This document shows, piece after piece, positions 9,004 through 36,869 of a DNA stretch of 54,197 nucleotides. This DNA comes from Actinomycetota bacterium (GTDB taxonomy: Bacteria; Actinomycetota; Coriobacteriia; Anaerosomatales; JAENZW01), in the NCBI GenBank assembly GCA_016841065.1, contig JAENZW010000004.1, positions 1-54,197 on the forward strand, in the 5' to 3' direction. The first letter of the stretch is position 1, and every line of letters starts with the position of its first letter. A program made the translations under genes and the position numbers. Under the pieces are notes generated by a model. It had not been told where the DNA came from and made no database searches. It was given only the letters and a program-made list of their open reading frames with translations.

Positions 9004-9124
9004 GAGACCGGCTCGCGGTCGTGGTGTCGCACGCGGCAAACACATATACTCGGGGAGGGCCTACGCTCGTTCGATTGAGTTGTCGCTCGTTGAGTGTCGC
9101 CTGGGGATTGGCAGGTCGTAGCCG

Positions 9125-9895: not shown

Positions 9896-9945
9896 GATGA
9901 TGCCATTGCGAACCACGGATGTAGTCCAAGTGGGTGGAGGGGTAC

Positions 9946-11739: not shown

Positions 11740-11745
11740 CCTGCG

Positions 11746-16962: not shown

Positions 16963-16987
16963 AACAGAACCGAAGAGGGAGCGCTTC

Positions 16988-19165: not shown

Positions 19166-20343
19166 CGGCGAACGTCACGGCGAACGGACTTGTGGGCGTC
19201 GATCCCTACGACGCCCTTATGGGCACCCGGATTCCTTCATGGGTCCGAAGCAACAGCCGTGCACGCCAGGCGGCGATACAGCTCCGCAAGCGGTTGCCGA
19301 TCGATCTCTCCAGGTTGCTGGGTGTTCGGCCGTACCTGATGGCGAAGTCGGTGGGCTGCGCGTTATCGGCGGTCGCACGCGAGGCGTGGGCGACGTCTGA
19401 CGGGTCCCAGAGAGCGGTCCTGCACTCTACGGCACTCGAACTGGCCCGGTCGCTCGAGACGTGCGGGGGCACGCTCGGCGGCGGTGCATACGGCTACGAG
19501 TTCGATGTCCAGACGAGATGGGCGTACTATCCCGCGAAATCGCCGAACATTATCGCGACGTCCTTCGTGGGCAGAGGGCTCTTGGAGGCCGGAATCGCAT
19601 TCGACCAAGCGGAATGGCTAGGCGCCGCGGCTTCTTCGGCCGAGTTCATTGAGGAGAACCTGCTGCTTCAGGGGGCGGGGGATAGCTACTTCCGCTACAC
19701 AACGACATCGACGACTCTCGTGCACAACGCGAACCTACTTGGAGCGATGCTTTGCGCTTCGGTCGCCGCGATAGTGCCAGGGATGACCGTTGATGGCGGC
19801 GTACTGATGGCGGCGGCGCGATCGATCGACGGGCAGAATGATGACGGCTCGTGGGCATATGGTGTCGGTCCGGGGCTGAGTTGGTGCGACAGCTTCCACA
19901 CGGCGTACAACCTGGATGCCCTGCTCCATCTGTGGCTGGCGACCGGCGATGCCCGGGCCCGGTCGGCCCTGGATGCGGGTGTCGCCTACTGGACGGGGTC
20001 CTTCTTCGGCCCGGCCGGAGAACCGTACTACACGCCTGCGGCCAGATGGCCCATCGATGTCCATGCCGGCGCGACGGCGGTGGATCTGCTTGCGCGACTC
20101 GTCGCGCATCGCTTCGAGACAGCGAATCTGGCAACCAGGGTGGCCGACTGGATGAGGGCCAACCTGGTGGCAGACGACGGGATCACGACTCGCTATCAGA
20201 AGCGCCGCCTGTTCACTGACAAGCGGCACTTCGCCCGTTGGGGCGACGCGCACTGGATTATGGCGGTCGGCTCATTGAGCTGTCTGGATAGCGGCATGAC
20301 TGCTCCGCTGGAGGCGCGTCTGGCTGAAGTAGGGCGAAGATGA
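19162..20343 (+). CDS. alpha/alpha-toroid protein of the polysaccharide locus
   Basis: 393 residues, mainly helical. Repeated glycine-aromatic hairpins (GGGAYGYEFDVQTRW, DGSWAYGVGPGLSWCDSFHT, AGEPYYTPAARWPIDVHAGA, RWGDAHWIMAVG) are typical of six-hairpin glycosidase or terpenoid-cyclase-like (alpha/alpha) toroid folds. There is no signal peptide, so it should be cytoplasmic. No clear catalytic motif can be named; a sugar isomerase, lyase or uronyl-modifying role next to the bi-domain oxidoreductase is a guess. The GTG start at 19162 overlaps the preceding stop. It is the last gene of the operon and converges with the minus-strand acyltransferase, 22 bases away. Confidence 0.7.
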   Translation: MTANVTANGLVGVDPYDALMGTRIPSWVRSNSRARQAAIQLRKRLPIDLSRLLGVRPYLMAKSVGCALSAVAREAWATSDGSQRAVLHSTALELARSLETCGGTLGGGAYGYEFDVQTRWAYYPAKSPNIIATSFVGRGLLEAGIAFDQAEWLGAAASSAEFIEENLLLQGAGDSYFRYTTTSTTLVHNANLLGAMLCASVAAIVPGMTVDGGVLMAAARSIDGQNDDGSWAYGVGPGLSWCDSFHTAYNLDALLHLWLATGDARARSALDAGVAYWTGSFFGPAGEPYYTPAARWPIDVHAGATAVDLLARLVAHRFETANLATRVADWMRANLVADDGITTRYQKRRLFTDKRHFARWGDAHWIMAVGSLSCLDSGMTAPLEARLAEVGRR

Positions 20344-20365
20344 GGGTGCCGCTCAGACGCGACCG

Positions 20366-20950
20366 TCAGTCGTCCTTGTACCCCGGAGACGCGGCTGTGA
20401 TGCGCTTGCCGTACAACGCCTGTTCGTGGGTCGCGATCTCTTCGTCCGTGAAGCGATGTGCGACGACTTTCGCAGGCACCCCGGCCACGACGGAGTACGG
20501 TGGAACGTCATGGGTCACTACAGCTCCTGCGCCGATGACGCTACCGCGCCCAACGGTGATTCCCTTGAGGATGATTGCGCGCATACCAACCCATACGTCG
20601 TCCTCGATGACGACGTCCTGGTCGTCCTCGGGGCTCTTCAGGTGTGCGTCGAACATAGACACGCCGGGGCGACGAAACGTATGGTCTCCCGTTATGATCG
20701 CGACTTCGGGGGCCAGCATCACCTGGGATCCGATGCGTATCTTGGCGGCGGCGGCCGACAACCAGCAGTCCCGCCCGATGAACACGTCGCTTCCGATGAA
20801 GACGTTGGATGTGGACCCGATCTCGACGCCGTCGGCGATGTTGACGTTGGAGCCTGCGGCGCCGAGCGCGAACGTCGTCACGCCCGCGCGCTGTGCTGCG
20901 CGTCGTAGGTGCCTTAGCTGGCGGAAGAATCTGCCGACAAAGGTCGACAT
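20366..20950 (-). CDS. left-handed beta-helix acyltransferase (NodL/Maa-like)
   Basis: 194 residues with hexapeptide repeats (VNIADGVEIGSTSNVFIGSDVFIG, VVIEDDVWVGMRAIILKGITVGRGSVIGAGAVVTHDVP) and the catalytic-region histidine in ITGDHTFRRPG. The ending YSVVAGVPAKVV is the standard cap of this family. It probably O- or N-acetylates a sugar of the polysaccharide. The start at 20950 is chosen since GGAGG lies 8 bases upstream; the in-frame ATG at 20956 is only 2 bases from it. A TATGAT on the minus strand (21020-21015) may be its -10 box. Confidence 0.9.
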   Translation of the reverse strand: MSTFVGRFFRQLRHLRRAAQRAGVTTFALGAAGSNVNIADGVEIGSTSNVFIGSDVFIGRDCWLSAAAAKIRIGSQVMLAPEVAIITGDHTFRRPGVSMFDAHLKSPEDDQDVVIEDDVWVGMRAIILKGITVGRGSVIGAGAVVTHDVPPYSVVAGVPAKVVAHRFTDEEIATHEQALYGKRITAASPGYKDD

Positions 20951-21082
20951 GGTCATTGCCTCCGTGCGTTGGAGTCGAATGTGCGTTCACACGTGGGCAC
21001 TTGCTGCCAGGGACATCATAGCGAAGCGGCGCGCTGAGCGGGTCGCCTCTTGGGACGGATTCTGCTTTGGTGGGCCACGGCA

Positions 21083-21111
21083 CTGTCGTTGTGCGGGCGA
21101 GCCGCTACAAT
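21083..21111 (+). promoter_or_regulatory. probable promoter of the SAT-like gene
   Basis: TACAAT at 21106-21111 is a near-consensus -10, with a weak -35 (CTGTCG, 21083-21088) at 17 bases. A start near 21118 would leave a 16-nt leader that includes the GGGGG ribosome-binding site. Confidence 0.4.
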
Positions 21112-21133
21112 ACGGTCAAGCATGGGGGTATCG

Positions 21134-21628
21134 ATGACTGAAACGGTTTCCGCTTCCGAAGGCCTGTTGACGCAACACTACCGGGGATGGGATCTCGCGA
21201 TCGTCCTCTATCGCGTGTCGCACTCCTGCACGCGACTGGGCATTGTCGGATGGCCTTTTGCGAAGATGGTCCACTGGATCAGCCGGGCGGTCACCAGCTG
21301 CGATATCGATCCGCGAGCACGAATTGAGAAGGGTGTGCGCGTACCGCACTCGGTGGGCGTGGTCATCGGCGAGACGACCACAATCGGCGCGGGTACGATT
21401 GTCATGCCCGGGGTGGTCATCGGTGCCCGTGTGATCGGCGATACGTACAAGCGTCACGCGGACGTGGGCCGAAACGTGTTGATCGGCGCTGGTGCCAAGA
21501 TTCTCGGAGCAGTCCGCGTTGGCGATGGCGCGCAGATTGGGGCCAATTCGGTGGTGCTACGCGACGTGCCTGCAGGCGCGAAGGTCTTCGGGATTCCGGC
21601 GACGGTTGCCGAGAACAAGGACGCGTAG
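21134..21628 (+). CDS. serine acetyltransferase-like hexapeptide transferase
   Basis: 164 residues. The core is close to CysE-type enzymes: IDPRARIEKGVRVPHSVGVVIGETTTIGAGTIVMPGVVIG, then hexapeptide repeats through VLRDVPAGAKVFGIPA. The long helical N-terminal domain of CysE is reduced to about 55 residues, as in short SAT homologues found in capsule loci. It could make O-acetylserine, but acetylation of a polysaccharide sugar is at least as likely in this position. The ATG at 21134 has GGGGG six bases upstream; a second ATG at 21122 would lack a ribosome-binding site. A strong hairpin follows the stop. Confidence 0.85.
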   Translation: MTETVSASEGLLTQHYRGWDLAIVLYRVSHSCTRLGIVGWPFAKMVHWISRAVTSCDIDPRARIEKGVRVPHSVGVVIGETTTIGAGTIVMPGVVIGARVIGDTYKRHADVGRNVLIGAGAKILGAVRVGDGAQIGANSVVLRDVPAGAKVFGIPATVAENKDA

Positions 21629-21702: not shown

Positions 21703-23690
21703 CTACGGCGTGATCTCACCGATGATATCCAGCGCGTCCACCCCGATCATCGTGCCCGCCGACTCGGTGCGCTTGGCGCCCATGCAGGTGATGGTCACGG
21801 TGTGCGGACCTGAGGTGAGGTCCCCGGAGGACCAGATCAACTGCTTGAAGGCGAAGACTCCGTAGAGGTCGACCTCTTCGGCAAGTCCGCCATCGACGCT
21901 CACGAGAGCCTTGCCGTAGGAGGTGCTCTTCGAGCCGATCCAGTCGATTCGCGATCCATCGAACGAGAGGGAGACCGTCGACCCCGGCGTCGAGCTGACC
22001 TTCCACGAACCGGAGTGGAGATTCGCATGGTTGACCGACGACCACGAACCGGCATACGCGATGCCCGAGTCGAGGTTGTCGAAGCGCGTTGGCTGAGGAC
22101 CGGTGACCGCTTCTGTGAGTACGCCGACTATGTCGAGCGCGTCGATCCCGATCATGTAGCCGGACGAGGCAGCGTTCTTGTCGCCCGTGTACTCGATCTT
22201 GAGGGTGTGACTGCCGTCGGTCAGCTCACCCGAGGTCCAAACGGCCTGCTTGAAGGCGAACGATCCGTAGAGATCGACCGGGACTGGCGTTCCGTCATCG
22301 ACGGTGACCTGAGCGATGCCGTAGTTCGTCGACTTGGAGGATATCCACGTGATGCGAGTTCCGGTGAACCCGACCGTCAGGGAGGAGCCCGGTGTGGCTG
22401 TCAGCCTGTATGCGCCGCCGGACAGACCCGAATTGCTCAGCGAAGACCAGGTACCGGCCCAACCGAGGAGAGCGTCGGTCTCTTCGTAGCGTGTGCCCGG
22501 TGGAGTCGAGGGCTCTGCCTGCGTGAGGACGCCGACTACGTCGAGCGCGTCAACACCGACGTGGATTCCCGTGGAGCCGGGGTTCTTGTTTCCCGTGAAG
22601 CTGATCTTCAGCGTGTGGGGTCCGTCGGCGAGCGTGCCGGAGGTCCAGACCTTCTGCTGGTAGGCGAAGGTACCGTACAGGTCGACGTTCTGAGTTGGTC
22701 CGCCGTCGACGGAGACGGTCGCGATTCCGTAGTTCGTCGCCTTGGCTGTGACCCACGTGATCTTGGTGCCAGTGAAAGCCACGTTGACCGCGGAACCCGG
22801 TGTTGAGGTCACCTTGTACGCACCTCCTGAGAGGCCGCTGCCGCTCGTGGAGGACCAGGTTCCGTCGTAGGCGAGGAGCGTGCTGACGTCCTCGTAGCGT
22901 GTTGAGGGAGTCTGCGCCTGGGTGAGTACGCCGGACACGTCAAGTGCATCGACGCCGACTGTGTAGCCGGATGAGGCCGGGTTCTTTGTGCCCAGGTACT
23001 CGATCCTGACAGTGTGCGCTTCATTTGTGAGGGTTCCGGACGTCCATACGTTCTGCTGGAAGGCTGTCGTGCCGTAGAGGTCCACGGTGTGGGTTGTCGT
23101 GCCGTCAACCGTGACGAGCGCTTTGCCGTAGTTGGTGCTGTTCGACGTGACCCAGGTGATCTTCGTGCCCGTGAATGCCACGTTGACCGCGGAACCCGGC
23201 GAGTTCACGTACAGGTAGTCGCCTCCGGAGAGACTGGCGTGGCTGGTGACAGCCCAGTTCCCCTCGTAGGCGACGAGAGACGTGTCCTGCTCGTACCTGC
23301 GGTCGACGAGCTCACCGTTCACGTCGAATGCGTCGACGCCAATGGTGTATCCAGTGGAAGACGCGCTCTTCTCGTACAGGCACTCGATGCGCACGGTGTG
23401 CGTGCCGTTGGGCAGCAGGCCGGAGGACCAGACGTTCTGCTTGAACGAGAACGCTCCGTAGAGATCGACTGTGTAGGTGGTCGTTCCGTCAACGGTGACG
23501 AGGGCTCGGCCGTAGTTGGTGTTGCTCGAGGTGATCCAGTCGATCTTGGTCCCACGGAATGTGAACTCCGCCGCAGCGCCCTTCGTCGAGGTGACCATGA
23601 AGTTCCCGCCCGAGAGATTGACGTGCGAGGTCTTCGCCCAGGGACCGAGAAGTGCGACGCGGCCGTTGTCCTGCTCGAAACGCTTCTTGA
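21703..23690 (-). repeat. tandem array of five C-terminal type B modules
   Basis: Five consecutive copies of the 130-residue type B module without intervening type A repeats. Each begins with an aromatic-acidic pair (RFDN, RYEE, RYED, RYEQ, RFEQ), contains a DLYG core and a VWTSG or IWSSG strand, and ends in GVDALDVxG. They are 50-70% alike by eye, so they are older than the perfect duplication further upstream. Short Pro/Thr linkers (AEPSTPPGT, TGPQPT) join the last ones. Confidence 0.85.
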
Positions 23691-26600
23691 TACTGAAGCT
23701 GACGGATTTGACCGTCTCCACGTTGCCCGCGACGTCGGTCGACTTGAACTCAACGGTGTGAGGTCCGCCGGCGGAAGTGCTGATCGAGGTGCCCGTGGTC
23801 CAAGTTCCGGCGTCCAAGCGGTACTGGGTCGATTGCACACCTGATCCGACGTCGGTCGCGCTCAGCACTATCGCAGCGCTTTCGTTGTAGTCCGCGACGG
23901 CGTCGGACGTTGTCACGGGCGCAAGGGTATCGACTTTCGCGTGCGCGGCGTGGGCAACCTCTGTATTGCCTGCGGCGTCGACGGACCAGATGCCCACGAC
24001 GTTGTCGCCCGGAGTCGACACGACGAATGGTGCCGAATACGTTTTGGCGGTACCGCCGTTGATGCGGTAGTAGGTACCAGATACGCCGGACATGTTGTCG
24101 CTTGCCGACAGCGTGATGGTGATTGGCGTGGTCTTCCACGTGGTCGGAGTATTCGATGTGGTGACCGGGGCGGTCGTGTCTGCGACGAGGAGCTCGCCCA
24201 CGACGTCGAAGGCGTCGACGTTGATGGTGTAGCCCGTAGACGCAGGGTTCTTCTGCCCGGAGTACTCGATACGCACGGTATGTGCGCCGCTGGCGAGGTC
24301 TCCAGACGTCCACACGTTCTGCTTGAACGAGAAGGCGCCGTACAGGTCGACGTCAACCGGTGCTCCGCCGTCGAGGATCAGGCGTGCAGTGCCGTAGTTC
24401 GTCGCCTTGGTCGATACCCACGTTATCTTGGTGCCGGTGAATCGGATGTTCGCAATCGCGCCGATTGAGGCGGTGTTCTTGGCGGTGCCACCCGAGAGAC
24501 TGGAATGCGACGAATCCCACCAAGTGCCCTGGTAGATGATTTGCGACGCCACCTGCTCGAAACGCTTGGTGATCGTGAACGATGCGCTCTTGGTGTCCTC
24601 GACGTTTCCGGCCTCGTCAAGCGAGCGGAACTCGACTACGTGGCTCCCGCCGGTGGTGACGACGATGTCGGCGCCGTCAGTCCATCCGCCGCCGTTGAGC
24701 CGGTACTCAGTGCGATCGACCCCGGAGAGCGAGTCGCTGGCAGAGAGTCGGATCGTCGCGGACGTGTTGTAGCTCGAGAGAGTGTTGCTTGTCGTGAGCG
24801 GGGCCGTATTGTCGATTCGCACGGTTGCCGTGCGCGTTTCTTCGATGTTGCCCTTGACGTCCGTGCTGGCGTAGTCGATCGTCGTGACACCCTCTGAGGA
24901 GATTTCAACTGGCGATGCGTAGACCGTAGTCGTGCCGCTGGCTGAACGATATGCGGTCTCAGCGATGCCTGAGGCGTTGTCATTCGGGCTCAGGATCAGA
25001 TAGAACGGACCCTGCACCCAACCTTCCAGGGCGTTGTCTATCGTCTGCGGCGCCGTATCGTCGATCTGGACTCGCGCCGTCTTGACGTCCTCGGCGTTGC
25101 CGGCGATATCGACTGAGTAGTACTTGATGGTCGATGTGCCTTCGTTGCTGATGACGAGGGGAGACGTGACCTCGACGCTGGGCACGCTTCCGTCCAGCGA
25201 GTAGTAGGTGTGCGCCACGCCCGAAGCCGTGTCCTCGGCGGAGATCGCGACCGTGACCGGAGAGCTAGCCCAATTGTCCGGGGCGTCGGTCGTGCTGACC
25301 GGGTCGGTCAGGTCGACCGAAACGGTCGTGAAGTGCGAAGTCTCGATGGTGCCTACGTTGTCGACTGCCCAGAACTCCAGGCTGTTGGCACCGTCGGTAG
25401 AGATGACGAAGGGGACGCTGTACGTGTTCGTGTCGCCATCGTTGACCCGGTAGTAGATCGCCTGCACACCGGACATATCGTCGGAGGCAGAGAGAGTGAC
25501 GCTCACAGGAGCGGTACGCCAGTCGACAGGGGCGTTGGATGTGCTCACTGGTGCCGTCTTGTCCGCGACCAGGAGCTCGCCGATCACGTCGACCGCGTCG
25601 ATCGACACGGAGTAGCCGGTCGACGCCGCGTTCTTCGTGCCCGTGTACTCGATGCGCACGGTGTGCTCGCCGTCGGCCAGAGTCCCGGAATTCCAGACCG
25701 CCTGTTTGAACGCAAACGTGCCGTAGAGATCGACCTCGACCGGCGCTCCGCCGTCGAGGATCAGGCGGGCCTTGCCGTAGTTGGTGGCCCGGGTGGAGAT
25801 CCAGGTGAGCTTGGTGCCGGTGAATCGGATATTGACTGCGCCACCGACCGAGAGTGTGCTCTTGCTGGTGCCTCCCGATAGATTGGCGTTTGACGAGGAC
25901 CACCAGGATCCCTGGAAGACCACCTTCGGGTCGCTCTCTTCGAAGCGCTTCGTGATCGTGAAGGAAGCCGTCTTCGTCGCCTCGATGTTGCCTACCGCGT
26001 CTGTCGACCGGAAGTCGAGCGTGTAGCTGCCTCCCGTGGTGACGACGATCTGCGTACCCTCGGTCCACGCTCCGGAATTGAGGCGATACTGCGTCTGCGC
26101 GACTCCCGAGTGCAAATCCGACCCAGTCAAGCGAATCGTGGCCGAAGTGCTGTAGCTCGCGAGCGCGTTGCTGGTCGTTGTCGGCGCGGTGTTGTCGATC
26201 TTGACGGTGGCGGTCTGGATCGCCTCTGTATTGCCGGCGATGTCGACCGAACGATACGTGATGCTGTTGATACCCTCCGCTATGACCGGGAAGGGTCCGT
26301 CATACAGAGTTTCGGGATCGCTGCCAAGAATCGAGTAGAAGGTTCCGGCGACGCCCGCTGCGGAGTCCTGAGCGGACAGGGCAAGGAGTACTGGTCCGTG
26401 GACCCAGCCCTCCGGCGCGTCATCGGTCGTGGAAGGCGCGCTGTCGTCGATGCGCACGACCGCCTCGCGGACGTCCTCCGTGTTGCCCAAGACGTCGACG
26501 GAGTGGTACGCGATCGTGTGCGTGCCCTCGCCGGAGACAGCGACCGGGACCGTGTAGGTGGTCTCGTCGCCGCCGTCGAGCGAGTAGTAGGTGTCTGCCA

Positions 26601-29600
26601 CGCCGGCGTCGGCGTCGGTGGCGGAAAGCGTCACGTGGACGGTGCCCGCACGGAAGCCCTCCGGCGCGTCATCGGTCGTGGAAGGCGCAGTCCGATCGAG
26701 CTTGACCGTCGCTGTCTGAGTATCCTCGATGTTGCCCGCGACGTCGGCAGACCAGTACTCGACCGTGTTGATGCCTTCGTCTGAAACATCGAACGGCCCG
26801 GCGTATTCGGACAGAGCGGAGCCGTTCAGGCTGTAGTAGCTTGCCGCAACGCCAGACCCGTCGTCTGTCGCCAAGATCGAGACGCTGACCGAAGCGTCAC
26901 TGCGCCAATCAGCGGAGTGCTCGGGGAGAAGGCTCGTCGGCGCGCCCTCGTCCACGAGGACATAGTGAGTGTCGCTCCAGCCCTCGGTGTTCCCTGCGGG
27001 GTCAACGGAGAAGAAGGTGACGGTGTGCGTGCCTGGCTCGCTGAACGCGATAGGGGAGGTGTAGGTTGTGACGAGGCCGCTATCTGCCCTGTAGTACGTC
27101 GTGTCGACTCCAGAGTACGTGTCTGTGGCGGAGAGCACCGCGTATGCAGGTCCCTTCACCCAGGCACCCGGTGTCTCGCAGGTGGTGACGGGAGCCGTGT
27201 TGTCGATTCGCAGGGTTGCGGCCACACCGGTCTCGGTATGGCCGATCGCGTCCACCGACCAGTACTGGAGGAGCGTCGTTCCCTCGTCGGCGAACTCGAG
27301 CGGGGCCGTGTACGTCGTGACCACGCCGCTGTTGATGCGGTAGTACGTCGTCTCGACACCGGAGTAGGGGTCGGTCGACGTCAGGGTGACGGTCACCGGG
27401 CCGTTGACCCAGGCCGTCGGGGCGTCGTCGGTGGTGACCGGCGCCGTGCTGTCGACGTAGACAGTGACATTCTTGGAGACCTCGGTGTTCCCGGCGCCGT
27501 CTATCGACCAGTACTCGACGGTGTGCGTGCCCTCCGCGGTGACCGGGAACGGTGCGGAATACAGGGTGGACGCGCCGCCATCGATGCGATAGCGGCTCTC
27601 GGCGACGTAGGTCTGCGCGTCGGTCGCCGTCAGGGTGACCGTGACGCCGCCGTGCGTCCAGCCGGCGGCGGCATCGGCTGAGGTGGACGGCGCCGTCGTG
27701 TCGGACACGAGCGTGCCCGCGACGTCGATTGCGTCCACGCCGATCGTGTAGCCGGAAGACGAGGCGTTCTTCGTGCCCGTGTACTCGATCTTCAGGCGGT
27801 GGGTGCCAGACGAGATGGTCCCTGACGACCAAACCTTCTGCTTGAAGGCGAACGAGCCGTAGAGGTCGACCGTGACGGGTGCGTTGTCATCGAGGGTGAC
27901 CCTTGCGATGCCGTAGTTCGTGTTCTTGGACGTGATCCACTCGGCACGCGTGCCGTCGAAGACGAAGTAGAGCGCGGAGCCGGTCGTTGCGGTCTGCTTG
28001 AAGCTGCCGCCGGACAGGCTTGCGTGGTTCGTCGACCACCAGGTGCCCTTCCAGGCGAGTGCGGCGTCCGTCTCCTCGTAGCGGGCCATGAGATCGAAGC
28101 TCACGGACTTGACCGCCTCGGTGTTGCCGATCGCGTCGACCGAGTAGTACTCGAGGGTATGGCTACCCAGCGCGCTCGTGGACACCGCTGTGCCTGGGTT
28201 CCACGAACCGCCGTCGAGACGCCAGTAGGTGTTCGCGACGCCAGACTGAGTATCCGACGCGGTGAGCGTGATGTTGGCGGACCCGACATAGGTCGAGGCC
28301 GCGTTGGAGGTCGTGATCGGTGCCGAGTAGTCGAGCTTCAGCGTGGCCGTCTGAACTGCCTGTGTGTTTCCGGCATTGTCCACCGACCAGTACTCAAGCG
28401 TACGGGTCCCCGAACCGCCGATGAGCAAAGGAGTAGCGTAGGAGGTCTGAGCACCGCCGTCTAGCCGATAGTAGGTCGCCGCCACACCGGAGACCGTGTC
28501 CTGCGGGAAGAGCGAGACGAGCACGGGTCCATGAACCCAACCCACTGGTGCGTTGTCGCTCGTCACGGGGGCCGTGTCGTCGATGCGAACGTTGACATTG
28601 TGGGCGGTCTCGGTATGGCCGATCGCGTCCACCGACCAGTACTGGAGGAGCGTCGTTCCCTCGTCGGCGAACTCGAGCGGGGCCGTGTACGTCGTGACCA
28701 CGCCGCTGTTGATGCGGTAGTACGTCGTCTCGACACCGGAGTAGGGGTCGGTCGACGTCAGGGTGACGGTCACCGGGCCGTTGACCCAGGCCGTCGGGGC
28801 GTCGTCGGTGGTGACCGGCGCCGTGCTGTCGACGTAGACAGTGACATTCTTGGAGACCTCGGTGTTCCCGGCGCCGTCTATCGACCAGTACTCGACGGTG
28901 TGCGTGCCCTCCGCGGTGACCGGGAACGGTGCGGAATACAGGGTGGACGCGCCGCCATCGATGCGATAGCGGCTCTCGGCGACGTAGGTCTGCGCGTCGG
29001 TCGCCGTCAGGGTGACCGTGACGCCGCCGTGCGTCCAGCCGGCGGCGGCATCGGCTGAGGTGGACGGCGCCGTCGTGTCGGACACGAGCGTGCCCGCGAC
29101 GTCGATTGCGTCCACGCCGATCGTGTAGCCGGAAGACGAGGCGTTCTTCGTGCCCGTGTACTCGATCTTCAGGCGGTGGGTGCCAGACGAGATGGTCCCT
29201 GACGACCAAACCTTCTGCTTGAAGGCGAACGAGCCGTAGAGGTCGACCGTGACGGGTGCGTTGTCATCGAGGGTGACCCTTGCGATGCCGTAGTTCGTGT
29301 TCTTGGACGTGATCCACTCGGCACGCGTGCCGTCGAAGACGAAGTAGAGCGCGGAGCCGGTCGTTGCGGTCTGCTTGAAGCTGCCGCCGGACAGGCTTGC
29401 GTGGTTCGTCGACCACCAGGTGCCCTTCCAGGCGAGTGCGGCGTCCGTCTCCTCGTAGCGGGCCATGAGATCGAAGCTCACGGACTTGACCGCCTCGGTG
29501 TTGCCGATCGCGTCGACCGAGTAGTACTCGAGGGTATGGCTACCCAGCGCGCTCGTGGACACCGCTGTGCCTGGGTTCCACGAACCGCCGTCGAGACGCC

Positions 29601-32600
29601 AGTAGGTGTTCGCGACGCCAGAGTAGGGGTCAGTGGACGACAGCGTGATCGCTGCGGGTCCAACATAGGTCGAGGCCGCGTTGGAGGTCGTCACCGGCGC
29701 GGTGTTGTCGATCTTGATGTACTCGGTCTTGATGGGTTCGACGTTTCCGCGAACGTCCAGCGAGTAGTACTTGAAGATGTTGGTGCCCTCGTTCGAGAAG
29801 GTGATCGGCACCGTGTAGGGTGTCGTGGGGTTTGCACCGGTCGTAGAGTAGTAAGTGGCTGCGACACCGGTCGTCGCGTCGGTACTTGTCAGGGCTACCT
29901 GCACCGGTCCATTTGTCCATCCGGTGGGCGCGTTGCTGGTCGTGACCGGGGCAACGGTGTCAGGCACGAGTGCGATGACGCCGTCGATGGCGAAGCGGTC
30001 GGCTGAGATTCGAGTTCCGGTCGATGATGCGTTCTTCTGACCGGTCCACTTGATGATCACATAGTGATACGTGTAGTCGATCGTGCCCGAGTCCCACAGC
30101 GCCTTGTCGTACTGGCTGGCTGCCGAATAGAGGTCACGCGTACTGACATATTGACCGTCGAGATACACGTCGGCCTCGCCAAAGTCCGACCCGAGCTCGC
30201 CATACCACACGATGCGTTCGCCGTTGAAGTAGACATGCGTCTCAGCGCCGGAGGTGTTCGTCCACGCCCACGAACCGCCACTGCCAGAACCGGTCACAGT
30301 CGTCCAAGGGCCCTTGAGGGCGAGGCTCGAGTCGTTCTGCTGGTAGCTGTTCGTCCAGAGACGAACCCTGAACGTCTTACTTTTGGTGGTTTCCACATGA
30401 CCGGCATTGTCCACCGAGTACCAATACACAGTATGCCAACCCCATGCGGAGATGTACGCGCTGGTTCCCGTCTGCCACGACCCACTGTCGAACTTCCAGT
30501 AGGTTTGTGTGACGCCGGAGGCGGGGTCTGTCGGGAAGAAGTGAATCATCGCATCGCCCGAGTACGTGTCGCCGACATCGGACGTTGTCACTGGAGCGGT
30601 GTAGTCGATCTTGACCGTCGCCAGGTTCGGTGTCTCGACGTTGCCGCGCGTGTCGCGCGAGTAGTACCTGACCTCCGTTTGTCCTTCGGTTGAGATCTGG
30701 AAGGGAGCGGCGTAGATCTGCGTGAAGCCGCCATTGATGGAGTAGAACGTCTTGTCGATTCCGGAGACCGCGTCGGTTGCCTCGAGCGAGACCGTAAGTG
30801 GAGATGTGATCCATTCGTCTGTGATGTTGGAGGTGGTGACCGGGGGATCGGTGTCTGGTGGGAGCACTTCGACCTGGATAGAGTTTGTTTCCTCGATATT
30901 GCCGGCGCCGTCGGTGGTGTAGTACTGGATGGTGTGCACGCCGAATGACGTAATGGTGATAGTCTGGCCGGTCATCCAGGAACCCTGGTCAACCTTGTAC
31001 TTCGTTGTGGCGACACCAGAGAGGGCATCGGTCGGAAAGAGATGCACGGTTCCGGACTGTATGTAGGGAGTCTCGATGTGGTCGTCCGTGGTATCCGGTG
31101 CGGTGTTGTCTATCAGTAGAGACTCCACAGTTCCGGACTCAACATTGCCACGATAGTCCACGGAGTAGTAGCTGATCGTGTGTTCGCCTTCGCCCCATAC
31201 CTCGAACGGGATGTCATACGAAGTGGAGGTCTCCTCGAGTGTGAACGTGGCTGTGTATGAGGCCAGATCGATTGTGTAGTGGGTGAATTCGACGCCTGAC
31301 ACCGCGTCGTACGCAATCAGGCCGCCGTGGAACGGTGCACCCGTGGTCCAGCCGTTCGGTATGTTCGAGCTGGTGACTGGTGGGTCGACGTCGATGGGGA
31401 GGATGTCGATCTCATCGATGTTGATCGTCTCTGCGTTGCCGGCGTAGTCGGTCGAGTAGTACTCGATGACGTGGTGGCCGACCGTCCCGATGTAGATCGT
31501 CTTGCCGGTTACCCAGCTTCCGCCGTTGAGGCGGTACTTGGTGTTGAGGAGTCCGGACAGGTTGTCGCCGGACGTGAGAGTGATGGTACCGGAGTCGACA
31601 TAGCTCGACTCGGCATTCGACGTGGTCCACGGTTTCGTCCAGTCGATACGAACGGTCTCTGAATTCACCGACTCAGCGTTGCCGCGTTTGTCGATGGAGT
31701 AGAACTTGACGGTGTGGATGCCCTCAGAGGAGATCGTGAACGGCGTCGAGTATTCGATGGTCGGTGTGGAACCGTCGCTCGAGTAGTACGTCTTGTCTAC
31801 ACCGGTGACGGTGTCGGTTGCCGTAAGGGTGACTTGAGCGGGCGCCGTGTACCACGAGGACGAGATGTTCGAATAGGTGTCCGGAGGATCGGAGTCGATA
31901 GGGTCGATCACGATATCGATCTGATTGACACCCTCCGAGTTTCCCGCAGCGTCGACGGAGTAGTACTGGATCGTGTGAGAGCCGAGGACGTTGGTGATGA
32001 CCGACGTGCCGGGGGTCCAGGAGCTCTGATTGATCTTGTAGAAGGTGCTCGCGACTCCCGAGAGATTGTCAGTTCGCGAAAGCGTGATGTTTGCGGTGCC
32101 GATGTAGACCGGTTGCGCATCGTCCGTCGTCACTGGGGGAGTGTTGTCTATCCGCAAGAAGTCCGTGTGGACGGGCTCTACGTTTCCTGCCACGTCGCGC
32201 GAGTAGTACCTAACCGTAGTGGTCCCCTCATCCGAGATTGACAGCGAAGAGGAATACCGTCGGGCCGGATACGATCCGTCCGTCGAGTAGTACGTGGCCT
32301 GTACGGCGGAACTGGCATCCATTGCGGAGAGGGTCACGACGAAAGGCTGTCCCTGCTCCCACTCGGCCTGGATGTTCGAGGTTGTCACAGGCGGTACTAC
32401 GTCGGTCGAGTCCATCTCGTAGAGGATGAACTGGACGCGGTCGTTCCCGCTGTCTGCGACGTAGAGGTTGCCGTCCGCGTCGCACGCGACGTCCTCCGGC
32501 ACGCTGAACTGACCGGGACCTGAACCTGACTCGCCGATCGATTGTACGAACGTACCGCTGCTGTCGAAACGTACGATGCGGTCATTGAGAGTGTCCGCGA

Positions 32601-33423
32601 CGTAGACGGTCCCAGTCGCATCGACAGTGACTCCCTGCGGGTTCTGGAAGGTGTCCGTGCCGCCGTCGTCCCACGTATCGAGTGTCAGCTGGAGGGTTCC
32701 GGAAGTGCTATATCGATACACCTTGCTGTACATGGCGTCTGCGACCCACACGTGGCTGAAGCTGTCGATCCAGATACCGTCGGGACTTGGCGGCAAGCCG
32801 TCGAGGGGATCAGGATCCGGCAGAAGCCACTGAGAGAGGTAGTTGCCCGAAGAGTTGAATACCTGGATGCGTCCGTTGTAGGTATCGCTGACGTAGATGT
32901 CGTCCGATGCGTCGACGGCGACGCCCATGGGGTAGTCGAACTCACCGATTTCCGTGCCGTACGAGCCGAAGTGATTCACGTACTCGCCGTACGAGTCAAG
33001 AATCATGATCCGATAGTTGTCGGCGTCCGCTACGATGACGCGGCCGGTGGAGTCGACCGCGATGTGAGCCGGCCAGAGGAGTTCTGGCGGATCGATGCTG
33101 GTTCCTGCGGATGCGAACGAGCCGAGCGGCGTGGAGGTTGAGTCGAGCGAGTAGAGGCTGATCTGACTGTATTCCGAGGGATAGGGACCGTAGGGGTCGC
33201 CGTAGTCGCTCTCGGACACCAGCACCGTGCTGCTGCCGACAACGGCGACGGCCTCAGGCCAGCCGCTTCTTCCCGCGGCGATGTCCGTCTCCCACTGCCA
33301 GGTATCTAGCGGGGACGGCCCTGTCTCTCCCGCCACGGCGGACATGCTCACGGCCACTACTGCAAGCAGCAGCGATCCCATGATCACGCCCGCAATCCGG
33401 GCAACCCTCTTCTTTCTCGACAC
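21703..33423 (-). CDS. giant secreted modular protein: NHL propeller, 27 Ig-like repeats, 10 beta-sandwich modules
   Basis: About 3,906 residues in one uninterrupted frame. A basic start and hydrophobic segment (RIAGVIMGSLLLAVVAVSMSAVAGE) form a signal peptide. An NHL beta-propeller follows (DNA about 32,405-33,290; repeats such as PMGVAVDASDDIYVSDTYNGRIQVF). Next come 27 repeats of about 83 residues (type A), recognisable by TAPVTTSNAP, the SGV turn and YYSVDxxGNxE; they resemble OmpL47/chitobiase C-terminal Ig-like repeats. Ten modules of about 130 residues (type B), with a GTWWSS...SGG start, DLYG core and GxDALDVxG end, look like galactose-binding beta-sandwiches. Four are at the extreme C-terminus after a fifth interspersed one. 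No sortase signal, SLH domain or C-terminal helix is seen. GTG at 33423 has GGAGG eight bases upstream. Likely a surface adhesin or polysaccharide-binding fibre; specificity unknown. Confidence 0.9.
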   Translation of the reverse strand: MSRKKRVARIAGVIMGSLLLAVVAVSMSAVAGETGPSPLDTWQWETDIAAGRSGWPEAVAVVGSSTVLVSESDYGDPYGPYPSEYSQISLYSLDSTSTPLGSFASAGTSIDPPELLWPAHIAVDSTGRVIVADADNYRIMILDSYGEYVNHFGSYGTEIGEFDYPMGVAVDASDDIYVSDTYNGRIQVFNSSGNYLSQWLLPDPDPLDGLPPSPDGIWIDSFSHVWVADAMYSKVYRYSTSGTLQLTLDTWDDGGTDTFQNPQGVTVDATGTVYVADTLNDRIVRFDSSGTFVQSIGESGSGPGQFSVPEDVACDADGNLYVADSGNDRVQFILYEMDSTDVVPPVTTSNIQAEWEQGQPFVVTLSAMDASSAVQATYYSTDGSYPARRYSSSLSISDEGTTTVRYYSRDVAGNVEPVHTDFLRIDNTPPVTTDDAQPVYIGTANITLSRTDNLSGVASTFYKINQSSWTPGTSVITNVLGSHTIQYYSVDAAGNSEGVNQIDIVIDPIDSDPPDTYSNISSSWYTAPAQVTLTATDTVTGVDKTYYSSDGSTPTIEYSTPFTISSEGIHTVKFYSIDKRGNAESVNSETVRIDWTKPWTTSNAESSYVDSGTITLTSGDNLSGLLNTKYRLNGGSWVTGKTIYIGTVGHHVIEYYSTDYAGNAETINIDEIDILPIDVDPPVTSSNIPNGWTTGAPFHGGLIAYDAVSGVEFTHYTIDLASYTATFTLEETSTSYDIPFEVWGEGEHTISYYSVDYRGNVESGTVESLLIDNTAPDTTDDHIETPYIQSGTVHLFPTDALSGVATTKYKVDQGSWMTGQTITITSFGVHTIQYYTTDGAGNIEETNSIQVEVLPPDTDPPVTTSNITDEWITSPLTVSLEATDAVSGIDKTFYSINGGFTQIYAAPFQISTEGQTEVRYYSRDTRGNVETPNLATVKIDYTAPVTTSDVGDTYSGDAMIHFFPTDPASGVTQTYWKFDSGSWQTGTSAYISAWGWHTVYWYSVDNAGHVETTKSKTFRVRLWTNSYQQNDSSLALKGPWTTVTGSGSGGSWAWTNTSGAETHVYFNGERIVWYGELGSDFGEADVYLDGQYVSTRDLYSAASQYDKALWDSGTIDYTYHYVIIKWTGQKNASSTGTRISADRFAIDGVIALVPDTVAPVTTSNAPTGWTNGPVQVALTSTDATTGVAATYYSTTGANPTTPYTVPITFSNEGTNIFKYYSLDVRGNVEPIKTEYIKIDNTAPVTTSNAASTYVGPAAITLSSTDPYSGVANTYWRLDGGSWNPGTAVSTSALGSHTLEYYSVDAIGNTEAVKSVSFDLMARYEETDAALAWKGTWWSTNHASLSGGSFKQTATTGSALYFVFDGTRAEWITSKNTNYGIARVTLDDNAPVTVDLYGSFAFKQKVWSSGTISSGTHRLKIEYTGTKNASSSGYTIGVDAIDVAGTLVSDTTAPSTSADAAAGWTHGGVTVTLTATDAQTYVAESRYRIDGGASTLYSAPFPVTAEGTHTVEYWSIDGAGNTEVSKNVTVYVDSTAPVTTDDAPTAWVNGPVTVTLTSTDPYSGVETTYYRINSGVVTTYTAPLEFADEGTTLLQYWSVDAIGHTETAHNVNVRIDDTAPVTSDNAPVGWVHGPVLVSLFPQDTVSGVAATYYRLDGGAQTSYATPLLIGGSGTRTLEYWSVDNAGNTQAVQTATLKLDYSAPITTSNAASTYVGSANITLTASDTQSGVANTYWRLDGGSWNPGTAVSTSALGSHTLEYYSVDAIGNTEAVKSVSFDLMARYEETDAALAWKGTWWSTNHASLSGGSFKQTATTGSALYFVFDGTRAEWITSKNTNYGIARVTLDDNAPVTVDLYGSFAFKQKVWSSGTISSGTHRLKIEYTGTKNASSSGYTIGVDAIDVAGTLVSDTTAPSTSADAAAGWTHGGVTVTLTATDAQTYVAESRYRIDGGASTLYSAPFPVTAEGTHTVEYWSIDGAGNTEVSKNVTVYVDSTAPVTTDDAPTAWVNGPVTVTLTSTDPYSGVETTYYRINSGVVTTYTAPLEFADEGTTLLQYWSVDAIGHTETGVAATLRIDNTAPVTTCETPGAWVKGPAYAVLSATDTYSGVDTTYYRADSGLVTTYTSPIAFSEPGTHTVTFFSVDPAGNTEGWSDTHYVLVDEGAPTSLLPEHSADWRSDASVSVSILATDDGSGVAASYYSLNGSALSEYAGPFDVSDEGINTVEYWSADVAGNIEDTQTATVKLDRTAPSTTDDAPEGFRAGTVHVTLSATDADAGVADTYYSLDGGDETTYTVPVAVSGEGTHTIAYHSVDVLGNTEDVREAVVRIDDSAPSTTDDAPEGWVHGPVLLALSAQDSAAGVAGTFYSILGSDPETLYDGPFPVIAEGINSITYRSVDIAGNTEAIQTATVKIDNTAPTTTSNALASYSTSATIRLTGSDLHSGVAQTQYRLNSGAWTEGTQIVVTTGGSYTLDFRSTDAVGNIEATKTASFTITKRFEESDPKVVFQGSWWSSSNANLSGGTSKSTLSVGGAVNIRFTGTKLTWISTRATNYGKARLILDGGAPVEVDLYGTFAFKQAVWNSGTLADGEHTVRIEYTGTKNAASTGYSVSIDAVDVIGELLVADKTAPVSTSNAPVDWRTAPVSVTLSASDDMSGVQAIYYRVNDGDTNTYSVPFVISTDGANSLEFWAVDNVGTIETSHFTTVSVDLTDPVSTTDAPDNWASSPVTVAISAEDTASGVAHTYYSLDGSVPSVEVTSPLVISNEGTSTIKYYSVDIAGNAEDVKTARVQIDDTAPQTIDNALEGWVQGPFYLILSPNDNASGIAETAYRSASGTTTVYASPVEISSEGVTTIDYASTDVKGNIEETRTATVRIDNTAPLTTSNTLSSYNTSATIRLSASDSLSGVDRTEYRLNGGGWTDGADIVVTTGGSHVVEFRSLDEAGNVEDTKSASFTITKRFEQVASQIIYQGTWWDSSHSSLSGGTAKNTASIGAIANIRFTGTKITWVSTKATNYGTARLILDGGAPVDVDLYGAFSFKQNVWTSGDLASGAHTVRIEYSGQKNPASTGYTINVDAFDVVGELLVADTTAPVTTSNTPTTWKTTPITITLSASDNMSGVSGTYYRINGGTAKTYSAPFVVSTPGDNVVGIWSVDAAGNTEVAHAAHAKVDTLAPVTTSDAVADYNESAAIVLSATDVGSGVQSTQYRLDAGTWTTGTSISTSAGGPHTVEFKSTDVAGNVETVKSVSFSIKKRFEQDNGRVALLGPWAKTSHVNLSGGNFMVTSTKGAAAEFTFRGTKIDWITSSNTNYGRALVTVDGTTTYTVDLYGAFSFKQNVWSSGLLPNGTHTVRIECLYEKSASSTGYTIGVDAFDVNGELVDRRYEQDTSLVAYEGNWAVTSHASLSGGDYLYVNSPGSAVNVAFTGTKITWVTSNSTNYGKALVTVDGTTTHTVDLYGTTAFQQNVWTSGTLTNEAHTVRIEYLGTKNPASSGYTVGVDALDVSGVLTQAQTPSTRYEDVSTLLAYDGTWSSTSGSGLSGGAYKVTSTPGSAVNVAFTGTKITWVTAKATNYGIATVSVDGGPTQNVDLYGTFAYQQKVWTSGTLADGPHTLKISFTGNKNPGSTGIHVGVDALDVVGVLTQAEPSTPPGTRYEETDALLGWAGTWSSLSNSGLSGGAYRLTATPGSSLTVGFTGTRITWISSKSTNYGIAQVTVDDGTPVPVDLYGSFAFKQAVWTSGELTDGSHTLKIEYTGDKNAASSGYMIGIDALDIVGVLTEAVTGPQPTRFDNLDSGIAYAGSWSSVNHANLHSGSWKVSSTPGSTVSLSFDGSRIDWIGSKSTSYGKALVSVDGGLAEEVDLYGVFAFKQLIWSSGDLTSGPHTVTITCMGAKRTESAGTMIGVDALDIIGEITP
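27228..28245 (-). repeat. 1,018-bp perfect direct repeat, copy 1
   Basis: Base-for-base identical by eye to 28605-29622, at an offset of 1,377 bases (459 codons). It encodes one type Y repeat end, one type B module and two type A repeats. After a 40-base divergent patch (28246-28285) identity resumes in register for about 29 bases. Confidence 0.95.
28605..29622 (-). repeat. 1,018-bp perfect direct repeat, copy 2
   Basis: Second copy of the segment at 27228-28245, inside the same reading frame. The two copies are separated by 359 bases that encode unrelated type A repeats. Confidence 0.95.
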
Positions 33424-33623: not shown

Positions 33624-34379
33624 CTAACGCCGGGTGAGGCGCTCCCTGAGGGTGAGCCAGATGAAACGAGAATTGCCGACAAGATAGCGACGCCACATGC
33701 GTTTCGGCTCCTGGAGCAGGCGATACAGCCACTCAAGGCCGGACCGCTGCATCCAACGAGGAGCTCTGGCGACGTGCCCTGCCACGACATCGAGGCTGCC
33801 GCCGACGCCGACCGCCAGTAGCGGACCGAAATCCGACAGATTGTCGGCCACGAGATACTCCTTCGCGGGGGACGGCATCGCTACGAAAAGCAGACGCGCG
33901 CGAGAGGCTCGGACTTCGTGGACGATCGGCGCCGCTTCCGTGAAGTAGCCATCGTGTGCGCCAGCGATGACGAGGCCCGGATAGCTGCTGGTCAGTGAGG
34001 ATATCGCGGCGTCAAGAACTTCCTGCCGCGCACCCAGAAAGTACACCGCCCATCCGCGCATTGCGGCCTCGATGAGCAGACGGTGCATCAAGTCGATTCC
34101 GGTGACGCGCTCGGGTACCCGGTGGCCGAGGAATCGACCGGCCCAGACAACAGATTGCCCGTCCGCGTTGACGATGTCTGCCCGTGTGATTGAATCCCGA
34201 AGTCGGTCGTCTTTTGACGCAAGCACGACTTTGCCTGCGTTCAGAACGACGTGGTGCGAGGGCAGTCCGCCCTCAATCAGGTCAACGCACGCAGCCACGG
34301 TCTCGTCCATGGTGACGAGGTCGAGTGGCATACCGAATATCAGGGCTCGCTGAGCCGTCTGGAAGACCCTACCTGCCAT
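33624..34379 (-). CDS. WecG/TagA/CpsF family glycosyltransferase (GT26)
   Basis: 251 residues of the family that transfers N-acetylmannosamine or related sugars to lipid-linked GlcNAc in teichoic acid and capsule assembly. Characteristic segments are NADGQSVVWAGRFLG, VTGIDLMHRL, VYFLGARQEVLDAA, and the C-terminal GVGGSLDVVAGHVARAPRWM followed by LEWLYRLLQEPKRMWRRYL, a membrane-associating tail. The start is taken as ATG 34379, since a near-consensus -10 (TATAGT, minus strand 34395-34390) would place the transcript start about 4 bases upstream; the longer GTG at 34391 would lie inside the -10. It is divergent from the initiating sugar transferase and lies upstream of the giant gene on the same strand. 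Confidence 0.92.
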   Translation of the reverse strand: MAGRVFQTAQRALIFGMPLDLVTMDETVAACVDLIEGGLPSHHVVLNAGKVVLASKDDRLRDSITRADIVNADGQSVVWAGRFLGHRVPERVTGIDLMHRLLIEAAMRGWAVYFLGARQEVLDAAISSLTSSYPGLVIAGAHDGYFTEAAPIVHEVRASRARLLFVAMPSPAKEYLVADNLSDFGPLLAVGVGGSLDVVAGHVARAPRWMQRSGLEWLYRLLQEPKRMWRRYLVGNSRFIWLTLRERLTRR

Positions 34380-34389
34380 AACGAGATAC

Positions 34390-34397
34390 ACTATACT
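34390..34397. promoter_or_regulatory. overlapping divergent -10 boxes
   Basis: The octamer ACTATACT holds TATACT on the plus strand (34392-34397) and TATAGT on the minus strand (34395-34390). Each is one mismatch from TATAAT. Predicted starts fall at or within a few bases of the start codons of both flanking genes. No good -35 boxes are visible. Confidence 0.45.
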
Positions 34398-34401
34398 TCA
34401 C

Positions 34402-35868
34402 GTGGGTTCGGAGGAATCCGAGCGGTGGTTCGGATGGCGGAGGTTCGTGGACCGGCGTATCACAGCAACCCAGGTCGTCGTCGACTTCATCATGCTCGTG
34501 GCTGCGGGCTTCGTAGCAACGGTGATGAGATTCGGCACCATCACGGCCGGGATATCGTTCTACAACGCGAATGCACAGCTGCCTTTCTGGAGGCTGACCC
34601 TGTTCATCGCGCCGATCTGGGTCCTCTTCCTCTACGGAGAGCGTCTCTACGACGCAGGAAGCGCATCCGTGCGTCCCGGAGAACTCGCGCGCGTTGCGCG
34701 AGCCCTGTCGTTCGGGCTCGTTGCGCTCATCATGCTCACGTACGTCCTCGATCTGCAGGGTCTGTCGCGCGCCTGGGCACTCCTGCTGTGGTCATTGGGC
34801 GTCATCTTTGTGCTTGCCGGTCGGGGGCTCGTGCACTTCACAGTCGCATACCTTCGATCGCACGGACATCTGTGTCGCCCCACACTCATCGTTGGATCGA
34901 ATGCCGAAGCTTCCGACGTCATCCGCGTACTCAAGTCGGCACAGGAGTCAGGTCTCGTGCCTATCGGGTGTCTCGCATCGTCGCAGGCCGAGCGCCTCTC
35001 GTTGGACTTTTGCGCTCCCGAGATCCCATGTCTGGGATCCGCACGCGAGCTCAAGGAGGTTGTGCACGGACACCGCGTGGAGGTCGCAATCATCGTTTCG
35101 TCGGCCTTCGACCACGACGTGCTTGCACGCATGATTGCCGAACTCAGAGGTTCTGGGGTTGAGATCAACGTGTCGTCAGGCCTCTTCGAGGTGTTGACCA
35201 GCCGAGTGCTGATACGCGAGATCGCCGGCGTTCCGCTCATCACGGTACGAGGAGTCTCGCTCTCGCGTGGCAAGATCGTCACAAAGCGCATCTTCGACCT
35301 CGTCGTCGCTGGAATGATCGTGCTGGTCGGGCTACCGATCTGGATGCTCATCGCTCTTGGAATCAAGATGTCCAGCAAGGGTCCGGTGTTCTATGTCCAG
35401 GAGCGGGTAGGACGCGGTGGCAGACTCTTCGGCATGTACAAGTTCAGGTCGATGGTGGCCGACGCGGATGCCATGCTGACCGAGCTGGAGGCAGGGAACG
35501 AAGCCAGCGGTCCGCTGTTCAAGATGAAGGACGATCCTCGGGTGACGAAGATAGGGAAGTGGATGCGGAAGTTCTCGATTGACGAGTTTCCGCAGCTCAT
35601 TAACGTGCTCAAAGGTGAGATGAGCCTGGTCGGACCGCGGCCGCCCCTGCCTCGAGAGGTCGAGGAGTACACCGAGAGCCACTGGCGCCGGATGGAGGTT
35701 CTGCCGGGCATGACGGGGCTGTGGCAGGTTTCCGGTCGCTCGCGACTCACCTTCGATGAGATGGTCAGACTCGACATCTTCTACATCGAGAATTGGTCGG
35801 TTTCGTTGGACTTGCAGCTCATCGCGCGTACGGTTCCCGCAGTCCTGTTCGCCAGGGGTGCGTACTAG
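34402..35868 (+). CDS. undecaprenyl-phosphate sugar-phosphotransferase (polyprenol initiating transferase)
   Basis: 488 residues of the WbaP/WcaJ type, which attaches the first sugar-1-phosphate to undecaprenyl phosphate. Several N-terminal helices (from about residue 21) are followed by a Rossmann-like CoA_binding_3 region (PTLIVGSNAEASDVIRVL). The C-terminal Bac_transf domain starts at KRIFDLVVAGMIVLVGLPIW and has FYVQERVGRGGRLFGMYKFRSM, DEFPQLINVLKGEMSLVGPRP and PGMTGLWQVSGRS. The GTG at 34402 lies almost at the predicted transcript start; a GTG at 34447 with GGAGG three bases upstream is the alternative. galE overlaps the stop by one base. Confidence 0.93.
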   Translation: MGSEESERWFGWRRFVDRRITATQVVVDFIMLVAAGFVATVMRFGTITAGISFYNANAQLPFWRLTLFIAPIWVLFLYGERLYDAGSASVRPGELARVARALSFGLVALIMLTYVLDLQGLSRAWALLLWSLGVIFVLAGRGLVHFTVAYLRSHGHLCRPTLIVGSNAEASDVIRVLKSAQESGLVPIGCLASSQAERLSLDFCAPEIPCLGSARELKEVVHGHRVEVAIIVSSAFDHDVLARMIAELRGSGVEINVSSGLFEVLTSRVLIREIAGVPLITVRGVSLSRGKIVTKRIFDLVVAGMIVLVGLPIWMLIALGIKMSSKGPVFYVQERVGRGGRLFGMYKFRSMVADADAMLTELEAGNEASGPLFKMKDDPRVTKIGKWMRKFSIDEFPQLINVLKGEMSLVGPRPPLPREVEEYTESHWRRMEVLPGMTGLWQVSGRSRLTFDEMVRLDIFYIENWSVSLDLQLIARTVPAVLFARGAY

Positions 35869-36869
35869 TGCGCGTTCTTGCGACCGGAGGAGCCGGCTAC
35901 ATCGGCTCGGTGACCGTGCGGCTGCTGTGCGACGCGGGTCACGAGGTGACGGTGCTCGACACGCTTGAGCGCGGGAACGAGGCCGCAATCGACCCGCGGG
36001 CTCGCTTCGTCCGAGGGGCCGTCGACGATCGTTCCGCGCTTGCGGAGGCACTTCCGGGAATCGACGCCGTCCTGCATCTCGCTGGATACATCGAGGTCGC
36101 GGAGTCGCAGGTTCGGCCTGCGGAGTACCTCGAGAACAACGCGGTCCGTCCGATGGAATTGGTCGAGTCGATGTTGGAGCACGGAGTCGACGCAATCGTG
36201 TTCTCATCGACTGCGGCTGTCTACGGAGAGCCCGAGTCGGTGCCCATCCGCGAGGACGCTCCGACGCGCCCGGTGAACGTCTACGGTGCGAGCAAGTTGA
36301 TGTTCGAGCGGATGCTCGACTGGTACGGCACTCGCCGAGGGTTACGGTCGGTGCGTCTGCGGTACTTCAACGTGGCGGGGGCGTGGCCCGACGGCTCCAT
36401 CGGCGAGGCCCACGACCCGGAGACCCATATCATCCCCCGGATTCTCAAGTCGGTGGCATCAGGTCAAACGCGATTCGAGGTGTTCGGCTCGGACTACGAA
36501 ACACCCGATGGTACGTGCGTGCGCGACTACATCCACGTGTGTGATCTGGCTGAAGCGCACCGTCTCGCCCTTGAGTACGTGCACGCGGGGGGCAGCACCG
36601 ACGTCTTCAACCTCGGCAACGGTCAGGGCTACAGCAACCTCGATGTCGTGCGTACCTGCGCGGAGGTCGTCGGACGCGAGATCGACATCGAGCTGGGACC
36701 TCGCAGATCGGGTGACCCGGCGGTTCTCGTGGCGTCTGCGGAGCGTGCCGAAGATGTGCTCGGATGGCGGCCCAAACGGCCGGAGCTCAGGACGATCGTC
36801 CGCGACGCATGGAGCTGGCACGAGAGTCACCCCGAGGGCTACCACTCGTCGGAGGAAATGGTAGAATGA
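35868..36869 (+). CDS. galE: UDP-glucose 4-epimerase
   Basis: Interconverts UDP-glucose and UDP-galactose (or the N-acetyl forms), supplying sugars to the polysaccharide pathway. 333 residues, the normal length for this extended short-chain dehydrogenase. NAD motif TGGAGYIGS lies at the N-terminus; the catalytic set is SSTAAVYGEP with Y139-x3-K143 in YGASK. RYFNVAGA and DGTCVRDYIHVCDLAEAH are further GalE signatures. The GTG at 35868 shares a base with the stop of the sugar transferase (TAGTG) and gives an N-terminus that starts directly with the Rossmann strand. The tRNA-Val gene follows after 26 bases; a TAGAAT at 36862-36867 in the end of galE may be its -10. Confidence 0.95.
   Translation: MRVLATGGAGYIGSVTVRLLCDAGHEVTVLDTLERGNEAAIDPRARFVRGAVDDRSALAEALPGIDAVLHLAGYIEVAESQVRPAEYLENNAVRPMELVESMLEHGVDAIVFSSTAAVYGEPESVPIREDAPTRPVNVYGASKLMFERMLDWYGTRRGLRSVRLRYFNVAGAWPDGSIGEAHDPETHIIPRILKSVASGQTRFEVFGSDYETPDGTCVRDYIHVCDLAEAHRLALEYVHAGGSTDVFNLGNGQGYSNLDVVRTCAEVVGREIDIELGPRRSGDPAVLVASAERAEDVLGWRPKRPELRTIVRDAWSWHESHPEGYHSSEEMVE

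Follow-up and report, generated by a model that had tools for sequence, protein, structure and literature searches.

How is a secreted protein of several thousand residues held at the cell surface when it carries no recognizable anchor, and does its position within a polysaccharide locus indicate what holds it? The question is raised by the stretch of 54,197 nucleotides analysed here (the window), which is one contig (C79) of the 2.34 Mb draft genome of an Anaerosomatales bacterium, labelled G000. An earlier note had described an 11.7-kb frame of about 3,906 residues with a signal peptide, an NHL propeller, 27 Ig-like repeats, 10 beta-sandwich modules and no visible surface anchor, lying between two parts of an exopolysaccharide cluster, and had proposed that the product binds the local polysaccharide and is thereby retained at the surface. 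The ORF check of the window agrees with the frame and its length: the minus strand is open from 33498 to 21703, the GTG at 33423 is preceded by GGAGG and serves as the start, and translation of the giant gene (21703-33423, minus strand) yields 3,906 residues, with a calculated mass of 413 kDa and pI of 4.35. The signal peptide read from the sequence (about residues 1-32, SAVA/G; 33328-33423) is the sole strong hydrophobic stretch, and beyond it no stretch of 19 residues exceeds 1.4 on the Kyte-Doolittle scale. The Rfam search of the window gave only tRNAs, which ruled out a riboswitch or another RNA element ahead of the giant gene.

Profile searches recovered the same counts of modules. The NHL repeats (Pfam, E 7.5e-24) form a beta-propeller at residues about 55-340 (32404-33261), whose kin by sequence in the PDB are the TRIM-NHL and PknD propellers. 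The Ig-like repeats (type A) belong to the OmpL47-type domain family NF047446 of NCBIfam, with 27 stretches and 1431 bits against a curated cut-off of 40. The beta-sandwich modules (type B) match CE2_N (Pfam PF17996) in six stretches with an E-value of 3.7e-39 and 133.6 bits against a cut-off of 27.9, and a type B profile built from these six finds exactly ten B modules in the giant. No catalytic domain was found in the giant by Pfam or NCBIfam, and in particular no SGNH or other esterase domain follows CE2_N. With the local profiles, the module order is n5-A8-B-A2-B-A4-B-A7-B-A4-B-A2-BBBBB. All on the minus strand, A1-A8 (30355-32391) are followed by B1 (29974-30357), A9-A10 (29467-29949), B2 (29086-29463), A11-A14 (28087-29067), B3 (27709-28086), A15-A21 (25954-27690), B4 (25573-25950), A22-A25 (24571-25551), B5 (24190-24567), A26-A27 (23689-24168) and the C-terminal tail of five B modules, B6-B10 (21712-23685), a candidate wall attachment region. 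B1 to B6 each directly follow an A module, and B7 to B10 each follow another B. Self-comparison revealed an exact duplication of 1,018 nt, identical to the base, with copies at 28605-29622 and 27228-28245 (minus strand; residues 1268-1607 and 1727-2066). This is a recent duplication or conversion, and because the copies are identical the assembly is least certain about how many times this unit occurs; a short-read assembly, if used here, could give too low a number.

The giant does lack the anchors that were looked for, namely SLH, a sortase signal and CWB2. G000 encodes two sortases; covalent anchoring of the giant was rejected, with no LPXTG in the last 200 residues, no transmembrane tail and a protein that ends in B10. 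SLH domains were found neither in the giant nor in the genome of G000. CWB2 (PF04122) is absent from the giant, versus 93 CWB2 domains in other proteins of the same genome, where all ten B modules are confined to the giant. Both SLH and CWB2 were therefore excluded as its anchor.

Polysaccharide genes were found on both flanks of the giant gene, as the earlier note had described. The first part of the cluster (8287-21628, plus strand) encodes a weak LCP-like protein, Wzz/BY-kinase, Wzx, Wzy and a GT4 glycosyltransferase by domain searches, together with an AMP-binding enzyme, a dehydrogenase/MocA fusion, a hexapeptide transferase and genes without assignment; a PASTA amidase gene also lies on this left flank. 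Two of the cluster genes (19162-21137; 393 and 265 aa) have no Pfam or NCBIfam match, and relatives of the 393-aa gene lie beside or near WecG in loci L067, L079, L085 and L095. The upstream neighbour of the giant gene, on its own strand, encodes a WecG/TagA/CpsF glycosyltransferase (33624-34391, minus strand; Pfam 1.8e-61). On the other strand follow the cassette genes for PssY, an initiating polyprenyl glycosylphosphotransferase (34402-35868, plus strand), and GalE, a UDP-glucose 4-epimerase (35868-36869, plus strand), both assigned by domain search. A multihaem cytochrome c gene with paired CXXCH motifs (37144-38259) adjoins this cassette, and L083 also has a homologue close to its cassette. 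In a second type of recurring locus, the gene of an NHL protein adjoins multihaem cytochrome c genes, and an initiating sugar transferase of a second type is encoded a few kb away (for example L108:4532-11999 on G000:C135 and L066:3803-5859 on G048:C14); by coordinates, the NHL and transferase genes are near each other in about a dozen genomes of the order.

The proposal passed the genomic test that the earlier note had set for its refutation, namely that related genomes lack any tie to polysaccharide loci, and the association with polysaccharide genes is genuine and conserved: an A+B giant lies beside the PssY/epimerase cassette in 12 genomes, including that of the window (G000, G002, G009, G010, G014, G017, G022, G024, G025, G028, G031 and G032), from nine families (f1, f2, f7, f9, f10, f11, f14, f15 and f16). 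The cassette comprises the initiating sugar transferase, epimerases and sometimes WecG. In G002, G009, G010, G017, G024, G028, G031 and G032 the giant is divergent from PssY, which is followed mostly by GalE and UDP-GlcNAc 2-epimerase; the latter is present in most relatives and missing from the cassette of the window. In G014, G022 and G025 the giant adjoins an epimerase, with no PssY within the stretch read. The contig of the same-genus genome G001 ends inside WecG, at the expected beginning of a giant. Where the other flank could be read (G009, G017 and G024), it also carries glycosyltransferase or polymer genes. This neighbourhood was reached from two directions that are independent of gene context, a search with the B profile and a search with the propeller alone, in which the best hits other than the window are four giant-cassette loci (E 2e-94 to 1e-55). 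A scan of a contig collection with the B alignment gave four loci, and the comparison rests on the genome searches. A scan of all initiating transferases showed that family f12 has the cassette and f5 has the transferase, neither with an adjoining giant.

The module order is also kept. The start A8-B-A2-B is common to eight giants whose first half is intact, representing six families (G000, G002, G009, G010, G014, G017, G028 and G032), with the propeller of G009 on a separate frame; the giant of G025 fits this order over its available length, and those of G022, G024 and G031 deviate. The other long complete giant, that of G017, has 3,865 residues, ten B modules and the same five-B end. This tail was found in two giants only (G000 and G017), most of the others being cut by contig ends; the giant of G009 ends in BABAB, and that of G024 shows no B tail. 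The modules A1, A8 and A9 of the window find their best match in the positional counterpart in G017 (53-58%). Position-by-position orthology was not seen for the B modules of these two giants, and the copies look homogenised within each protein. Elsewhere in the phylum, two genomes of only 1.3-1.4 Mb have long open frames that include several B-like modules, of 7,162 residues on G078:C9 and 7,182 residues on G093:C8.

Structure prediction of a single B module, as the earlier note had suggested, gave a carbohydrate-binding type of fold with a pLDDT of 94.6. The nearest solved folds are 3nqh (Z 17.1), the CE2 structure 2waa (Z 15.4; rmsd 2.2 over 114 residues) and the xanthan module 7ehg (Z 13.3), followed by several CBM35 structures (Z 12-13; rmsd 2.7-3.0 over 113-120 residues). 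The matches cover CE2 N-terminal domains, the C-terminal domain of the putative glycosidase BT_2959, the xanthan-binding module and many CBM35, and these fold relatives include binders of acidic polysaccharides. The likeness to CBM35 is at the fold level, with 13-17% identity and no Pfam match of the giant to that family. A structure search with an A+B pair gave matches almost all to B and hardly any to A. By its predicted structure, B has a CE2_N/CBM35-type carbohydrate-binding fold and may bind sugar. To our knowledge, the domain of CE2 enzymes that corresponds to B is not the known substrate site, and no report of CE2_N as a wall module was found in the literature searched, mostly open-access papers. 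A shared fold is no proof of sugar binding, and therefore the partner domains of B were examined.

Outside the giants, 14 of 20 B proteins carry peptidoglycan enzymes (Amidase_3 in one, NlpC/P60 in three, YkuD in four and SpoIID in six), and the others carry subtilase, matrixin, polysaccharide deacetylase or RHS repeats. This is the spectrum of a wall-attachment module. Because B occurs on wall enzymes, the retention step of the earlier proposal is better supported than could be known from the window; fold and wall enzymes both argue for retention via B, with the local polymer as its possible ligand. The fusions to amidases, endopeptidases, L,D-transpeptidases and SpoIID occur in genomes that have no giant, and the ligand may therefore be a general wall polymer and need not be the product of the locus. 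On such a reading, the target of B is either peptidoglycan or a general wall polymer synthesized elsewhere, and the adjacency to the cassette marks a neighbourhood of surface assembly that is silent on the ligand. We regard this chief rival as possible, though tentative. The giants, however, adjoin this one cassette in nine families, the fold relatives of B include acidic polysaccharide binders, and the giant is the sole user of B in G000. If the product of the cassette were the ligand of B, this would most simply explain why giant and cassette stay side by side.

B and CWB2 were never found in one protein (0 of 49 B proteins). Among 61 genomes, B is present in 19 of the 21 CWB2-poor genomes versus 20 of the 40 others (Fisher p 0.002). 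With the giant-bearing genomes left out, B and CWB2 show a Spearman correlation of -0.52 (within-family permutation p 0.0002), a moderate relation; the genomes are not independent of one another, a limitation that permuting within families addresses only in part. The inverse relation is also seen within families f2, f5 and f12; in f2, for example, G026 has at least 80 CWB2 domains and no B, and G017 has one CWB2 domain and 21 B modules, counts near 80 being possibly lower bounds. Another OmpL47 protein of G000 consists of A8 followed by three CWB2 domains, and therefore the five B modules of the giant appear to stand in the place of a wall anchor. Peptidoglycan-enzyme domains were not found on the CWB2 proteins of G000. 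The position of the giant beside the cassette is occupied in f12 by a CWB2 protein, about 715 residues long. Such proteins are encoded at L074:17174-19324, L096:14710-16857, L098:2685-4832 and L080:14707-16908, and that of L074, the one scanned, also has PPC domains. The inverse relation with CWB2, together with the occurrence of B on wall enzymes, points to the cell's own wall, which argues against a giant that is released or loosely held as a matrix or adhesion protein, its B modules binding a biofilm exopolysaccharide or foreign glycans and cross-linking the matrix with no anchoring to the wall. Cross-linking would indeed be feasible with ten B modules distributed over the chain, a covalent anchor is absent and a released polymer could be the product of the Wzx/Wzy/BY-kinase cluster; even so, we consider such a matrix role unlikely.

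Based on these several lines, we propose that the giant is probably a surface protein whose B modules attach it non-covalently to a wall-linked polysaccharide, with the product of the adjacent genes as a plausible candidate. Gram-positive walls are described for cultured members of the order (PMC9686372). In such a cell the giant would be exported via its signal peptide, and the N-terminal propeller and the 27 Ig-like modules would form a long part extending away from the wall, which may make contact with surfaces, partners or matrix. The B modules would hold it non-covalently on the wall-linked polysaccharide, with the C-terminal run of five as the main attachment and the five further B modules along the chain as extra contacts. 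The most economical ligand would be the polymer of the neighbouring cassette, with its initiating transferase, epimerases and WecG, and the weak LCP-like protein. A role of the giant in polysaccharide assembly itself, for instance by catalysing or scaffolding the export or modification of chains, would also fit the conserved adjacency, but is very improbable given the lack of any catalytic domain by Pfam or NCBIfam and the cassette of f12 that has no giant.

Few modules are known for sortase-free holding of proteins at the surface of Gram-positive bacteria, CWB2, SLH and LysM among them. A module that seemingly swaps with CWB2 between related genomes would offer a new and directly testable pair of anchor and ligand, and as an anchor B would imply a surface location for many proteins that lack annotation in the Anaerosomatales, an order that is mostly uncultured. 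The wider reading is about evenly balanced in our judgement: that B is a new wall-attachment module of the CE2_N/CBM35 fold which replaced CWB2 in its role on several occasions within a single actinobacterial order, and that the giant is a conserved scaffold at the surface, linked to the polymer of the neighbouring genes.

The giant resembles several known systems and departs from each. The 27 A modules belong to the same OmpL47-type family (NF047446) as OmpL47 of Leptospira, a surface protein of this spirochaete with a mass of about 47 kDa, whereas here the family builds a Gram-positive giant with a propeller and B modules. B matches the N-terminal domain of CE2 carbohydrate esterases (2waa, 2wao; Z 15.4), which carry a catalytic esterase domain that the giant lacks. 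Among solved structures, the xanthan-binding module MiXBM (7ehg) is the best match of B both by sequence and by Foldseek, although the sequence match is only marginal (E 0.012). B also shares its fold with the CBM35 of CsxA from Amycolatopsis orientalis (2vzp, 2vzr; Z 12.3), likewise an actinobacterial module, which is reported to bind the producer's own wall polysaccharide (Montanier et al. 2009, as cited in PMC11002231). The CBM35 of CsxA is a single module on a chitosan enzyme, whereas B, at 15% identity, is found in tandem on a giant free of enzyme domains. Like the giant, the CWB2 wall proteins of Clostridioides difficile (SlpA, Cwp2) are secreted, use non-covalent tandem repeats and are encoded beside a wall polysaccharide locus, the one proposed for their ligand PSII (PMC4973711); the f12 CWB2 protein beside the cassette parallels this arrangement. 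The proposed anchor of the giant differs in being a CE2_N/CBM35-type beta-sandwich, five in a row and not three, with no CWB2 sequence. By analogy, CWB2 on PSII (PMC4973711) and, as far as the citing work reports it, CBM35 on the producer's own wall polysaccharide (PMC11002231) may serve as precedents for attachment mediated by B.
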